From positions 310,001-374,000 of the forward strand of contig NZ_JACBFO010000001.1 of the NCBI RefSeq assembly GCF_021401135.1: DNA of 64,000 nt, given 5' to 3'. Within the stretch, counting starts at the first letter, position 1; each line of letters begins with the position of its first letter. This DNA is from Azonexus sp. R2A61. GTDB lineage: Bacteria > Pseudomonadota > Gammaproteobacteria > Burkholderiales > Rhodocyclaceae. The notes under the pieces were generated by a model. The model saw nothing but the letters and a program-made list of their open reading frames with translations. It had not been told where the DNA came from and did not search any database. Position numbers and translations under genes: made by a program. This document shows positions 12,551-22,810 of the stretch, one piece after another.

Positions 12551-14506
12551 CTATTTTCCTGAATCAGCCACTTCTGCCGACATATACGCCTGCTTCGGAT
12601 TACTCGTCGATGCAAAAGCCGGAATCAAGCGCTTGGCTTGCACCATCGGGGTCAACACTCGTTTGCGCAAATCATCGGGGTCGCGCTCTAACAGATAAGA
12701 CAGCACCCTGCGTCCCAAAAAACGCCCAGTACAAAGCGCAAAAACAACATTTTGAAGCTCCTCTGGCGCAACCCGACGCTTGGGTCTGATCGGCGCGGCA
12801 ATCTCCGATAGCTCGATTTGCAACTCCGGTGACAAGTCTTCCCAATCCAGATACTGAGGCGTTAGCTCCGGTGGCATCGGGCCAAGCTCCGGTGATATAG
12901 GCCCCAGCTGCGGTGATATCACCGCAGCCAACCCCGGTGATATGGCAACAGCCTTTACTGCATTGGCGATTTCGACCCGCAGGTCGAAAAGGGCATCCTC
13001 CCGGGCCTTCTGCCACGGAAGGAAATACTCCATTCCTCGCCCTGCGCCATCGGAAAGTAACAGTCCCTCTCTCACCAGACCTGCCAGCACTTTGGAAATA
13101 TCCGCAGGATGATCGGTACAAACCTCATGCAGACGCGCATGGCTAACCACCCGCTCTGAACTTGCAATGATCAACGCCATGCGCTCCGTATCCGTTAACG
13201 AATGGAAGCGATCACCCAAATGCGCCTCCAGTTCGGCAATTACCTCCTCCGGAACCAGGCTGGTCATGCGCAATTCCATCAAGGTCTGTTCCGGCTCGCG
13301 TACTTCATAGAGAACCGGGCGACGCCAGTGCCGATTGGCCCAGTTGCTGTAAATCTTCGGAATTCCCGAGCCGGCATGATCGCCATAGCCCACCAACTGA
13401 AACATGGTTTGCAGCCGACGATTGCGGCAATCGCTAGTCCCGCCCTGAATGGCCATTTCAGGTGAAATCCGCATCAATCCGGGGTTGCGGAATCCGAACA
13501 TATCCGGGCGCTTAACCACCAGCACCGAAGCCCGGCCCGAGAAATCGGCATGGATCAGCGTATTGACCAACGCCTCCCGCAAGGCCTCATGCACCGGCGT
13601 GTCTTCAATGCGCTGGCCATCCTTGAGCTGGAACTGGATTTTCAGATCAGCCGTCAGCTTTTGATACACTTTGCGGAAAAAGTCGTAGATATTCCCCGAC
13701 CAACTGCCATCCGGCACCAGCCGGTCAACCCAGCGTTTTTCTGCCTTGGCTTCCGGGCGCTCCTGATAATCGACCATGTAATGCGGCAAGGCATCGCGGA
13801 TGACCTCGGCGCGCCCGAACATCAACAGGCCGGCCAGACGAATCCCGGAGTAACCCTCCTCTCGGTTCTTGCCGACTGCACCGATACGCTCCAGAAACTC
13901 CGGCACCGGCAAATCCGCCCAGACATGGCCGGGTTTGACCGCCGAAAAACGGTTCCGGTAAGCCGACACCGTATCCATATCCAGATCGCCGAAATCGAAT
14001 CCCTTGAGAATCCGCTCATCGCGTGAATCCTCGACCCGCTCGGCCAGCATGCGGCGCACCGATTCATCGTCGGCCGGGTAATCGCCTTCGTAACGCCGCA
14101 GATAGGTGCCGCCCAGCGGGTTGCTGCCCAGATGCACCGGCTTGGCCTGGCGCGGCGCACGCGGCACCTCGATACGCAGCACCGTCTTGCCATCGACCTT
14201 GATCGGCTGGATAGCCTGCTCGCTCAGCAGATTGATGCTGATCTGCTTACGATTGTGCAGGTTGTCCCAGATCGCCTTGCGCAGGCGTTCCACATCGGTA
14301 ATGCCCAAAGCCTTGAATTCGCCACGCGGCTTTTCCTGCACGCCGAGCAGGATGATCCCGCCATCGGCATTGGCCATGGCGCTATAGCTCTTCCAGAAAT
14401 CCTCCGGCACCTCACCGCGACCGTCCCGACCCTGGGCCGCCTTGCACTCCAGGTCGTAGGCTTCGGCCAGACCAGCGAGTTCGGAAATATCGATCAGATC
14501 ATCCAT
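12551..14506 (-). CDS. AlbA_2 (Schlafen-like) ATP-binding protein inside the type I R-M locus
   Basis: A 651-residue COG2865-type protein. The N-terminal AlbA_2 domain (about 14-150) shows LECKAAQGRDGRGEVPEDF and NADGGIILLGVQE. A HATPase_c_4-like region (about 325-425) contains HEALREALVNTLIHADF and NPGLM. The C-terminal part holds winged-helix-like segments and, near residues 518-548, tandem ISPxLGP repeats. Such proteins are often called transcriptional regulators or RecG-related, but their role in R-M loci is poorly defined. It sits between hsdS (40 bp upstream) and hsdM on the same strand, which suggests an accessory defence or regulatory role. The function is not known. Confidence 0.85.
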   Translation of the reverse strand: MDDLIDISELAGLAEAYDLECKAAQGRDGRGEVPEDFWKSYSAMANADGGIILLGVQEKPRGEFKALGITDVERLRKAIWDNLHNRKQISINLLSEQAIQPIKVDGKTVLRIEVPRAPRQAKPVHLGSNPLGGTYLRRYEGDYPADDESVRRMLAERVEDSRDERILKGFDFGDLDMDTVSAYRNRFSAVKPGHVWADLPVPEFLERIGAVGKNREEGYSGIRLAGLLMFGRAEVIRDALPHYMVDYQERPEAKAEKRWVDRLVPDGSWSGNIYDFFRKVYQKLTADLKIQFQLKDGQRIEDTPVHEALREALVNTLIHADFSGRASVLVVKRPDMFGFRNPGLMRISPEMAIQGGTSDCRNRRLQTMFQLVGYGDHAGSGIPKIYSNWANRHWRRPVLYEVREPEQTLMELRMTSLVPEEVIAELEAHLGDRFHSLTDTERMALIIASSERVVSHARLHEVCTDHPADISKVLAGLVREGLLLSDGAGRGMEYFLPWQKAREDALFDLRVEIANAVKAVAISPGLAAVISPQLGPISPELGPMPPELTPQYLDWEDLSPELQIELSEIAAPIRPKRRVAPEELQNVVFALCTGRFLGRRVLSYLLERDPDDLRKRVLTPMVQAKRLIPAFASTSNPKQAYMSAEVADSGK

Positions 14507-14546: not shown

Positions 14547-16088
14547 TCAACAATTGGTCAGCGGCTTGCTGACCAATTTTGCCTGCCGGCCCTTCGCCGG
14601 GGAAGCGCCACGGCTGGCGCGGATGCGTTCGAGCAGGGCGGTGGCGGGTTCGTCGTTTTTGTCCTGTTCGACCAGTTGACCGCAGAAAGCCTTTTTCAGG
14701 ATGGATTGGCGCAGCGCGTCGGCCTGTTGCAGCGCGGTGGTAAGGGTTTGGTCGAGTTGGTCGGCTTCGGAGAGTTTTTCCTGAATCAAGGCAATCAATT
14801 CGCGCTGCTCATCGGTGGAGCAAACCGGAATCACCACATTTTTCAGTTGTGTCGTATTGATTCGGGGGCGCCCAACGCCATGAATTTCCTCTTCAAGACG
14901 CTTATAGACTGAGCGTGTCGCCAAGAAACTCAGCGCAAAACTGTTCAAAAGCGTTTCACCAAAAAGCCGAATACAGAAGCAATCCGCCTTATTTACCGCC
15001 TTTTCAATACTTGGCGGAACCATTGCAACCCGAACATTTTCAGTAACAAACGACGAGAAAACCAAATCGCCTGGGAAAACTGTGTGCTTTTCCAACTCCA
15101 GATACTTCTCGGGAGTAACAAAAGAGAGTTTGTCCTCGATAAAGGCCATCGCACCGATATTTTCCAAGCGAATGACACGCACGCCATCTGAAACGTAGTC
15201 ACTGCTTTTCAAGTTGGAACCAAATGGCCCGTCAAAAACCTCTACGTTTGCGGCGCCCAAACGTATCCACCCCCACCCCGCCGGCAATTCAGGTAACTCG
15301 GCGAGTTCTTCGGGAGTAAGCGGTGGCAGGGGCTTGGGGGGTTTGGGTTTGGGGCCTGCTTGGCCGGCGGTTTTCCAGTCGGCGAGTTGTTGCTGGTAGC
15401 GGGCCTGGCGTTCGCGGGCGATACGTTGTTGCAGGGCGGTGGCGGTTTCAAGTTGGTCGGCGTGGGCGGCGCGCCAGGCGGCGGTGAGCTTGCCCTCGAA
15501 GGCATTCTTGAGCAGCGACTGGCGATAGACCTTGAGCTGTTCGCGGGCGGTTTTCAGGCTGGCCACGCCCTGATCGAGTTCGGAGAACAGTTCCTCGATT
15601 TTGGCGACGATGCGTTGTTGTTCGGCGAGGGGTGGAAGATTTAACGGCCACTCCTTGATGACCCCTTGGGAAATATTTGGCTGGGCACCACCTTTCCCTG
15701 CCTTGATGAGACTACGCTTCTCAGAGGCCAAGAAGTAGTACAAAAACTCGTTGTTCAAGGCTTCGCCACCAATCCCAACTGCACAGGCTTGGTTTGTTGC
15801 CGCATCAATTCCCCAGATTGATAGCTTGCCTATCGTGGCACCGTACATCGCAATGCCAACTGCCCCCTTTGGGAAAATTTTGGCGCTTGATTGAGCAATA
15901 GCAGTTTCTGAAATTCGTTCTTCAGCGTCCCGAATGTATTTGGCACCAAGCTCCCCGGTTTTAATCCAAGGAATATTCCCTCGAAAATACTCTGGCCGTG
16001 AGCGCGAAGGCGTCCCCCCCGATCCCCACGCCGCAACTTCTCCAAGAGTTGTTAACGCCCACCCCGCAGGCAACTTCCCAACACCCAT
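14547..16088 (-). CDS. hsdS: Type I restriction-modification specificity subunit HsdS
   Basis: A 513-residue specificity subunit with two target-recognition domains. The first begins LPAGWALTTLGEVAAWGSGGTPSR and ends in the coiled spacer LPPLAEQQRIVAKIEELFSELD. The second begins LPAGWGWIRLG and ends in a matching coil (LIQEKLSEADQLDQTL). A proline-rich linker (PKPKPPKPLPPLTPEEL) joins the two halves. The ATG at 16088 shares one base with the hsdR stop (TGATG); a GTG one codon earlier is possible. Each recognition domain reads half of a bipartite DNA site. The recognition sequence cannot be predicted from sequence alone. Confidence 0.94.
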   Translation of the reverse strand: MGVGKLPAGWALTTLGEVAAWGSGGTPSRSRPEYFRGNIPWIKTGELGAKYIRDAEERISETAIAQSSAKIFPKGAVGIAMYGATIGKLSIWGIDAATNQACAVGIGGEALNNEFLYYFLASEKRSLIKAGKGGAQPNISQGVIKEWPLNLPPLAEQQRIVAKIEELFSELDQGVASLKTAREQLKVYRQSLLKNAFEGKLTAAWRAAHADQLETATALQQRIARERQARYQQQLADWKTAGQAGPKPKPPKPLPPLTPEELAELPELPAGWGWIRLGAANVEVFDGPFGSNLKSSDYVSDGVRVIRLENIGAMAFIEDKLSFVTPEKYLELEKHTVFPGDLVFSSFVTENVRVAMVPPSIEKAVNKADCFCIRLFGETLLNSFALSFLATRSVYKRLEEEIHGVGRPRINTTQLKNVVIPVCSTDEQRELIALIQEKLSEADQLDQTLTTALQQADALRQSILKKAFCGQLVEQDKNDEPATALLERIRASRGASPAKGRQAKLVSKPLTNC

Positions 16089-18910
16089 CACGCCACCAAC
16101 GCCTCATTCAACTCATCGAGCAACGGGTCCATGCCCTCGCCGAACAGTTGCCACATTTTCCCCAGCCCGCCCTGGGCGTCGAAGGGGCTGTAGTCCAGAT
16201 CGCTGCGGTCGACGTGAAAAGAGTGGCAAATATGGTCGCGGAGCATGCGTAGCCAGTTCATCTGTGCTTCGTTGAATTTTTCGGTGGTGCCGGCGTGGTG
16301 CTGCATGATCCAGGTCTGGAAGTTCTTGCGCACGGTGTCAGCGAACGGGGTGATCTTTTCGTCCAGGCCGCAGACGCGGCGAATCAGGGCGACCAGCGCA
16401 GTCAGTTCCTGTTCCGGCGGGGCGCCATTGTACTGGTCGAGCTGGCCGTAGGCTTGCCAGACGCGCAGCGGGGCGAGTTTCGGTTTGTCGGCCTTGAGCT
16501 TGTCGAGCACCTGGCGCACCAGTTTCAAGGTCACTTCGCGCCGCCGCCAGGGTTGGGCGAAGAAGATGGTCAGGGCTTCGATTTCATCCCGGTTGGCGGC
16601 CAGCCAGTCGGCGAACTCAACGGTCAATGCTTCGGCCTGGGCGGTACTGTCCTGGCTCCAGCCGGCGTAGATGACGCTATCCAGGGTGTCGTGGTCGATG
16701 GTCTGTTCTTTTTCGCGGCGAATGGTGTCGATCAGTTCGATGAATTCGCCATTCAGCAGCGCGGCAGCTTCGCCAACCAGTTGTTGCTGGGCTTGGTCGC
16801 GCAGCGTGTCGCCGGGGTCGTTGCCGATGGGCAGGCCCGCCAGATCGAGGGCGCGGGCTTCGATGAGGTCGGCGTCGATGGCGTTGAAGAGTTTGCTGAC
16901 GACGTGGCTCAATTCGACGCCGCCGGCCGCTTCGCGCAGGCGGCGCTGGTCGTCGGCGTCGAGCTGCTTGTTGAGGCGGGCCAGGCGGCCGGCCAGCGAG
17001 GAAACGCTGTCGGTGTCGGTGGCGCCCATCAGGATGCCCATGGCGAGGTCTTTCAGCGGCACGCCGGGCTTGGTGATCAGCGGCTGGCTGGCGGTTTTCA
17101 GCGATTTGGTGACGCCGATGGCGTCGACGATGACGTAGTGGGTCTTGGCGGTTTTGGCGCTGGGGGTGACCTTTTGCAGGGCATCCATGTCCAGCGTGCG
17201 CGTTCCCCGGCCTTTCATCTGCTCGAAGTAGTTGCGGCTTTTGACGTCGCGCATGAAGAGCAGGCATTCGAGCGGCTTCACATCGGTGCCGGTAGCGATC
17301 ATGTCGACGGTGACGGCGATGCGCGGGTGGTATTCGTTGCGAAACTGGGCGAGGATGGATTTAGGGTCTTCGCCTTCCTGCACGCTGCCGTCGGCCAGCT
17401 TCTTGTCCTGCCCGGCGCGGTAGGTGACTTTCTTGCAGAAGGCGTTGCCTTCGCCGAATTCCTCGCGCACGGTGTTGATGATGTCGTCGGCGTGGCTGTC
17501 GGTCTTGGCGAAGATCAGAGTTTTCGGCACTTCGGCGCGACCGGGGAAGATGGCCGGCAGCTTGTCGCGGAAGGCGCGGATGACGGTGCGGATCTGGTCC
17601 GGATTGACGATGTCGCGGTCGAGCTGTTTGGCCGTGTAGGCGGCGTCTTCGTCCTGCTGCTCCCAGCGCTTTTTGCGCGTCAGGCGTTCGCGCTTTTCGA
17701 CCTGCTGCTGCGCGGCGATGACGCCGCCTTGCTGAGTGACCTGGGTGTCGATGAGGTAAATCTCGTTGCCGACGTTGACGCCATCGGCGACGGCTTTTTC
17801 ATGGCTGTAGTCGCTGACGACGTTCTTCCTGAAAAAGCCGTAGGTGCGGTTGTCGGGCGTCGCGGTGAGGCCGATCAGGCTGGCATCGAAGTAGTCGAGC
17901 ACCTGCTGCCAGAGGTTGTAGATACTGCGGTGGCATTCGTCGATGAAGATGAAATCGAAGAATTCGGGCGGGATTTTGGCGTTGTAGGCGACGGGCGGCG
18001 GGGCTTTCGGCTGCGTCAACTCGGCCGGGTTGGTTTCCTCGGCGTCCTCCGGCAATTCCTTGTCCTGCAGCAGCGAATAGAGGCGCTGGATGGTGGAAAT
18101 GCAGACGTCGGCGCCCTTGTCGACGAAGCTGTTTTTGAGCCGCTGGACGCTGTAGAGCTCGGTGAATTTGCGGTTATCGTCGATCGGCACGTAGGCCATC
18201 ATTTCCTGCTCGGCCTGCTCGCCGAGGTTCTTGGTGTCGACCAGGAAGAGCACGCGCTTGGCGTCGGCGTGCTTGAGCAATCTGTAGATGCTGGTGATCG
18301 CGGTGTAAGTCTTGCCAGCGCCTGTGGCCATCTGGATCAGCGCGCGCGGCCGGGCGTCGCGGAAGGATTGCTCCAGGTTGGTAATCGCCGTTTCCTGGCA
18401 GTCGCGCAGATGGAGTTCGCTGGCCGGCTTGTTTTCCGGATTTAGTTGCGGCAATTCGGCGAGGCGGGCGCGCAGGCTGCTGCCCTGATTCAGCCAGTCG
18501 CGTAGGGTTTCCGGGCGGTGGAAGCTGAACACCTCTCGCGAGCGCGGTTTGGGGTCGCGCGCATCGGTAAAGCGGGTAATCGCGCCGGTGGCTTCGTAAA
18601 GAAAAGGCAGCGGCGCCTTGTTATTGACCCATTTCAACTTGGCGGCGGCGTAGCCTTCGGTCTGGCTTTCGTGCACGGTGAGATGCTGACCTTCCTCCTC
18701 ACGCTTGGCTTCGATGACACCGACCGCCTGCTTGTCGATGAAGAGCACGTAGTCGGCGGGGCCGACGTCGGTTTGCCATTCGCGTACCGCCACCCCGCAG
18801 GCTGCGCCAAAGTTGACCTTGTTCTTGGCCTGAACAACCCAACCAGCAGCGCTCAGTTGTCCGTCAATGCGGTCACGTGCCTGTTGTTCTGGATTCTGGT
18901 TTTCGCTCAT
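16088..18910 (-). CDS. hsdR: Type I restriction-modification endonuclease/translocase subunit HsdR
   Basis: A 940-residue motor-nuclease subunit. The N-terminal PD-(D/E)xK nuclease shows D53 and EAK at 67-69 (GVIEAKREE). The helicase core has Walker A MATGAGKT (194-201), DECHRSIYN as motif II and later motif VI RGTRTL. The C-terminal region (about 780-930) matches the EcoEI-type assembly domain that contacts HsdM/HsdS. It is the first gene of the locus and is translationally linked to hsdS. The frame is intact and full length, so restriction is probably functional. Confidence 0.95.
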   Translation of the reverse strand: MSENQNPEQQARDRIDGQLSAAGWVVQAKNKVNFGAACGVAVREWQTDVGPADYVLFIDKQAVGVIEAKREEEGQHLTVHESQTEGYAAAKLKWVNNKAPLPFLYEATGAITRFTDARDPKPRSREVFSFHRPETLRDWLNQGSSLRARLAELPQLNPENKPASELHLRDCQETAITNLEQSFRDARPRALIQMATGAGKTYTAITSIYRLLKHADAKRVLFLVDTKNLGEQAEQEMMAYVPIDDNRKFTELYSVQRLKNSFVDKGADVCISTIQRLYSLLQDKELPEDAEETNPAELTQPKAPPPVAYNAKIPPEFFDFIFIDECHRSIYNLWQQVLDYFDASLIGLTATPDNRTYGFFRKNVVSDYSHEKAVADGVNVGNEIYLIDTQVTQQGGVIAAQQQVEKRERLTRKKRWEQQDEDAAYTAKQLDRDIVNPDQIRTVIRAFRDKLPAIFPGRAEVPKTLIFAKTDSHADDIINTVREEFGEGNAFCKKVTYRAGQDKKLADGSVQEGEDPKSILAQFRNEYHPRIAVTVDMIATGTDVKPLECLLFMRDVKSRNYFEQMKGRGTRTLDMDALQKVTPSAKTAKTHYVIVDAIGVTKSLKTASQPLITKPGVPLKDLAMGILMGATDTDSVSSLAGRLARLNKQLDADDQRRLREAAGGVELSHVVSKLFNAIDADLIEARALDLAGLPIGNDPGDTLRDQAQQQLVGEAAALLNGEFIELIDTIRREKEQTIDHDTLDSVIYAGWSQDSTAQAEALTVEFADWLAANRDEIEALTIFFAQPWRRREVTLKLVRQVLDKLKADKPKLAPLRVWQAYGQLDQYNGAPPEQELTALVALIRRVCGLDEKITPFADTVRKNFQTWIMQHHAGTTEKFNEAQMNWLRMLRDHICHSFHVDRSDLDYSPFDAQGGLGKMWQLFGEGMDPLLDELNEALVA

Positions 18911-19003
18911 GCCCGGAGAGGAGAAGACGATCAGCCGGACATCATAAGCGAAGAATCAGTGACTTGGCTTGGCAGGCGCCCTACCAACCGCTACACTTCG
19001 CCT

Positions 19004-19069
19004 CCTGCCGAGGAGCGCTGCGACCATTTCCCTGAATGGCCAGGCTCGGCAACGTTCAACGGCGCTCGC
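19004..19069 (+). promoter_or_regulatory. SAH (S-adenosylhomocysteine) riboswitch aptamer upstream of metH
   Basis: The segment contains CCGAGGAGCGCTGCGACC, then CAGGCTCGG, then ACGGCGCTC further on, the conserved core of the SAH riboswitch. P1 pairs CCGAG with CTCGG, and the pseudoknot-like pairing uses GAGCGCTG with CGGCGCTC. SAH riboswitches activate metH or ahcY when SAH accumulates. It sits about 80 bp before the metH start codon, as expected. Confidence 0.88.
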
Positions 19070-19109
19070 AAACCCTGTTTCCCGCCGGTTTGCAGCGCCG
19101 TTCGCTTTT
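19061..19109 (+). terminator. Terminator-like hairpin overlapping the SAH aptamer
   Basis: GGCGCTCGCAAACC (19061-19074) pairs with GGTTTGCAGCGCC (19087-19099) with one bulge around a 12-nt loop, then GTTCGCTTTT follows. The left arm is the 3' strand of the SAH aptamer, so aptamer and hairpin cannot form together. SAH binding would free transcription of metH, consistent with an ON switch. The U-tract is weak, so termination strength is uncertain. Confidence 0.6.
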
Positions 19110-19147
19110 GGCGGCGTCACCGGTACTTTGCTTTGCCGAGGTAAGCC

Positions 19148-22810
<3,663 letters not shown>

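Follow-up and report, generated by a model that had tools for sequence, protein, structure and literature searches.

A conserved SAH aptamer and hairpin sharing one strand upstream of metH: a probable transcriptional ON riboswitch

Introduction

The SAH riboswitch family was reportedly first described by Wang et al. 2008, and the work on the metH SAH riboswitch of Dechloromonas aromatica is said to be that of Ceres, Trausch and Batey 2013. The core regulon of this class consists of ahcY and metF, with metH as a taxon-specific member, according to the accessible text of PMC4239095. Natural ON riboswitches are described in section 15 of the review PMC5621056 as having a marked overlap of the aptamer with a rho-independent terminator; the same portion of that review counts the D. 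aromatica metH riboswitch among the two that Ceres and colleagues employed, and reports high readthrough for chimeric constructs derived from it. Covariation models of complete riboswitches, terminator included, are presented for several classes in a 2026 study (PMC13273304), in the accessible main text of which the word SAH is absent.

Here we describe the metH leader found in a 64-kb stretch of DNA, referred to below as the window. Compared by description with the D. aromatica riboswitch, as section 15 of the review presents it, this leader has the same gene, the same aptamer class, the same overlap of aptamer and rho-independent terminator and, as predicted here, the same direction of response, with ligand turning transcription on.

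Results

The SAH aptamer and its gene

The features of the aptamer and of the transcription unit that it precedes are as follows.

18969–18997, + strand: promoter-like TTGGCA-17-TACACT (sequence; kept across 71 genus leaders)
19004–19074, + strand: SAH riboswitch aptamer RF01057 (covariance-model match)
19006–19012/19045–19051, + strand: aptamer helix P1 (pair counts)
19024–19029/19034–19039, + strand: aptamer helix P2 (constrained fold)
19013–19018/19062–19067, + strand: aptamer pseudoknot helix P4 (pair counts)
19138–19141, + strand: Shine-Dalgarno GAGG of metH, inside the conserved word TTTGCCGAGGT (71 genus leaders)
19148–22810, + strand, ATG at 19148: metH, cobalamin-dependent methionine synthase, 1220 aa (open reading frame, Pfam)

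The aptamer is the sole Rfam match above gathering in the window, scoring 66.7 bits against a gathering threshold of 37 (E 4.3e-10) and spanning the full length of the RF01057 model (positions 1–78 of 78). The initial annotation had placed an SAH aptamer ahead of metH, and this match bears it out. The metH product carries five Pfam domains (Met_synt_B12, S-methyl_trans, Pterin_bind, B12-binding_2 and B12-binding), which place the aptamer ahead of a gene that serves SAH recycling or methionine synthesis. In its full-length match above gathering, its helices P1, P2 and P4 and the SAH/methionine-cycle gene downstream, the leader is like other members of the family, and no departure from RF01057 was found in its aptamer.

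In an alignment of 43 leaders (that of the window and 42 of the family), 99.6% of the cells of P1 and P4 are paired and 16 cells are changed on both sides, against a shuffle mean of 2.0, with none of 500 shuffles as high; P1 and the pseudoknot P4 are preserved through compensatory changes. The aptamer family is present in 75 of the 76 genomes of the window's genus and in 144 of the 150 genomes of the family sample.

Upstream of the aptamer is the promoter-like element. Among the 71 genus leaders, 70 or 71 agree at each TTGGC position and 61 at the following A, and the five fixed positions in TA-ACT are invariant. From the promoter spacing, the RNA is expected to start near 19004, at the first pairs of the aptamer. 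Divergent from this promoter is the start of an HsdR-like gene, part of a group on the − strand that comprises Type I restriction genes (HsdR-like, 16088–18910; HsdS-like, 14547–16091) and a gene for a Schlafen AlbA_2 protein (12551–14506). A 14-pair hairpin at 14548–14581 overlaps the final codons of the HsdS-like reading frame.

The putative terminator hairpin shares a strand with the aptamer

19058–19102, + strand: terminator hairpin, arms 19058–19074 and 19087–19102 (fold, stem scan, conservation, covariation)
19101–19109, + strand: interrupted T-run TTCGCTTTT, sharing the last two stem bases (sequence)

The hairpin has 16 pairs with one bulged base (C19067), a 12-nt loop and a folding energy of −25.3 kcal/mol. 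The arms given in the initial annotation, 19061–19074 and 19087–19099, belong to a real stem but are only its inner part, the full stem being that listed above. The short T-run that had been noted after the hairpin is present directly 3′ of the stem, although in the window it is interrupted (6 T of 9) and weaker than in many relatives.

None of 200 dinucleotide shuffles folds as well as segment 19055–19112 (z −3.5). In a strict scan (Watson-Crick pairs, at most one interruption, loop of 3–15) the terminator stem is the only one of at least 16 pairs in the window, and such stems number zero in each of ten first-order Markov controls. Under a looser energy control, this GC-rich window offers many minimum-energy hairpins of similar energy ahead of T-rich stretches, so it is the near-perfection of the stem and its conservation, not its energy, that carry the argument. 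A generic terminator scan confined to loops of 3–8 did not list the metH-leader hairpin, whose loop is longer. When the transcript is folded at successive lengths, the probability of the hairpin rises to 1.00 once 19100 has been transcribed.

Common to P4 and to the left arm of the hairpin are bases 19062–19067, such that the terminator arm contains bases of the ligand-stabilized aptamer helix. Because both structures need these bases they are mutually exclusive, and the earlier claim that aptamer and hairpin cannot coexist holds by base identity.

Conservation of the hairpin in the genus and family

The comparison covered 238 loci, of which 128 were typed metH, 37 ahcY and 11 untyped, and 62 were without the aptamer by motif search. 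For the genus, 71 distinct metH leaders were obtained from 72 of the 76 genomes. Leaders identical or nearly identical to other rows were excluded before counting (L054, the same leader as L051; L159, L160, L161, L163, L164 and L188). Alignment A1 holds 58 of the 71 genus leaders, and L123, L152, L175 and L192 were left out of the canonical set and of alignment A2.

Of the 71 genus leaders, 69 have a terminator stem of 14 or more pairs; by recount, 68 stems start at the same base and that of L073 two bases in, and a scripted count gives shorter stems for L079 and L098. Of 121 metH leaders, 115 passed the hairpin energy-fold test (69 of 71 in the genus, 46 of 50 in the family); the failures are two from the genus and four from the family. 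Past the right-arm CCG, 5–8 of the next nine bases are T in all 71 genus leaders, whereas 5 or more T occur in 2.5% of 3315 flanking 9-mers. Family tails are weaker in 7 of 46 leaders, with at most 3 T in the 10 bases past the stem. As the aptamer itself fixes the bases that it shares with the hairpin, the conservation of those bases is no argument for the hairpin.

In the 43-leader alignment, 92.4% of terminator cells are paired and 13 cells are changed on both sides, against a shuffle mean of 4.3, with none of 500 shuffles as high; 10 of these 13 sit on one pair. For the number of further pair types in the same alignment, all 500 shuffles were as high. One pair is open in 24 of the 43 leaders, probably owing to a shifting bulge. 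No two-sided terminator changes were found within the genus alone. The hairpin is conserved with compensatory changes, which in the family lie mostly on one pair. Left arms pair better with their own right arms than with exchanged ones, none of 4000 permutations doing as well. The 27 representatives used had been chosen among leaders that pass the hairpin test, a selection that biases the set towards own pairing.

SAH riboswitches of ahcY in the genome and family

The same genome carries an ahcY SAH riboswitch (L101, G000:C5:121537-121599) of the same aptamer class and in the same pathway as that of metH. Unlike the metH leader, it has, by eye, a downstream hairpin without a T-run. A CACAGT before its Shine-Dalgarno sequence can pair, again by eye, with ACTGTG at the GTG start, and the expression platform of this copy looks translational. 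In two family leaders, L003 and L146, whose gene was assigned to ahcY on a short protein motif, the hairpin is of the metH terminator type, as though ahcY and metH had swapped platforms.

A probable transcriptional ON switch

The comparisons show the aptamer, its overlap with the hairpin, and two folds that are each conserved and supported by covariation. We read the metH leader as a transcriptional ON riboswitch with a probability of about 0.85, a reading in which we infer where the RNA starts, that SAH binds, that transcription terminates at this site and how large the effect is. RNA polymerase would start at or near 19004 and transcribe the aptamer first. With SAH bound, P1, P2 and P4 would hold 19062–19067, the 16-pair hairpin could not close and transcription would read through into metH. 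Without SAH, 19058–19074 would pair with 19087–19102 as the latter emerges, and polymerase would be released at the T-run. Since P4 and the terminator compete for 19062–19067, SAH should permit readthrough. The initial annotation had likewise expected SAH to raise metH expression, an expectation that genus-wide conservation, covariation of both folds, the promoter and the review of the related metH riboswitch all support.

Alternative readings of the leader

A translational switch would place control at the ribosome-binding site. Without SAH, the 3′ strand of P1, CTCGGCAA (19045–19052), would pair with TTGCCGAG (19133–19140) over the Shine-Dalgarno sequence and block ribosomes, and SAH-bound P1 would free the site. 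The eight bases are exactly complementary, and partial complementarity continues as far as the start codon (76% over 17-nt arms). The helix appears in the minimum-energy and centroid folds of 18998–19160, and at each position of the TTGCC adjoining GAGG 67 or more of the 71 genus leaders agree. When the transcript begins at 19004, however, pair 19048–19137 of this helix has a probability of at most 0.02, and in six family loci (L128, L134, L147, L155, L174 and L181) P1 is changed to CTGAG/CTCAG while the CCGAGG upstream of the start is unchanged. A P1 strand pairs as well with an exchanged Shine-Dalgarno region as with its own (p 0.52 for 27 representatives), in a test of low power as P1 varies little. 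Modelled accessibility of the Shine-Dalgarno sequence in the window rises from 0.16 with the terminator closed to 0.25 with the aptamer folded, but across leaders the two states are alike, with p 0.27 for 67 genus leaders and p 0.19 for 42 family leaders. This analysis took in 109 of the 115 leaders that passed the hairpin test. A site hidden or free according to state, with co-variation, was not found in these comparisons, in which P1 hardly varies and permutation has little power. On the transcript folds, the six P1-changed loci, the permutation and the accessibility, we reject occlusion by the P1 strand and regard a translational switch as improbable. The word TTTGCCGAGGT that covers the Shine-Dalgarno sequence (19132–19142) is conserved in the genus far above most bases immediately 5′ of it, for which the tests made give no reason.

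Marginally less probable again is a leader in which the aptamer is real and the hairpin is an anti-aptamer fold that does not terminate, control being exerted by RNA decay, Rho or another route. The ahcY copy of the same genome, which by eye has a hairpin 3′ of its aptamer and no T-run, speaks for this reading, as does the interrupted metH T-run of the window; against this stand the T-rich tails that follow the metH hairpin throughout the genus leaders (71/71) and the D. aromatica homologue, which section 15 of PMC5621056 treats as an ON switch working through a terminator.

We also rejected a co-varying switch formed by a local CCGG hairpin that would cover the Shine-Dalgarno sequence (permutation p 0.26).

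A segment past the T-run can pair with the right arm

19110–19123, + strand: segment able to pair with the terminator right arm and loop edge (19085–19088, 19095–19102), of unproven role (folds, permutation tests)

Within the transcriptional ON reading, this segment lies beyond the point of decision. When it pairs with the right arm, the fold leaves the T-run in a loop. For the window by itself, 11 of 200 shuffles fold as well over 19085–19123, and 11 of 100 pair as well with the right arm. In the genus this helix has 95.6% of its cells paired and no two-sided change. Exchanging segments between leaders weakens the pairing (p 0.0007 for the 27 representatives, 0.010 for 23 canonical ones), the upstream flank giving p 0.053 (27) and 0.15 (23) as a negative control. 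A permutation with 40 related sequences gives p 0.0026; split tests are not significant for the loop part (p 0.37) or the arm part (p 0.22), and sets too small to carry weight give p 0.06 (75% identity, 6 sequences) and p 1.0 (70%, 2 sequences). When the aptamer is imposed on the fold, the predicted probability that the right arm pairs downstream exceeds 0.5 in 58 of 67 leaders of the genus and in 38 of 42 of the family.

We reject the segment as a classical antiterminator: polymerase has already left the T-run behind by the time it makes the segment, which therefore cannot decide termination. The footprint of RNA polymerase enters this timing argument. A conserved late lock is conceivable, if doubtful, on these models: after readthrough the segment would pair with the right arm, stop the hairpin from re-closing and hold the aptamer and the message in the ON state. 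No description of a downstream pairing segment was seen in the literature searched, which lacked most subscription papers and in which it was not sought by name; section 15 of PMC5621056 mentions no segment past the T-run that pairs with the right arm in D. aromatica, whereas the window has a candidate one. The late-pairing segment may be a modest, uncertain and small but testable addition to the described system.

Discussion

The mechanism of the metH SAH ON switch is already known and is not new here; the present leader is a further member, clear and conserved. Judged from sequence and comparative analysis, the switch very probably stops transcription when SAH is scarce. When SAH, and hence homocysteine, accumulates, readthrough would follow and more methionine synthase would be made. 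In an otherwise ordinary case, the aptamer and its expression platform are open to joint study by comparative genomics: one conserved strand would serve both ligand sensing and termination throughout the genus, and can be traced in the family.
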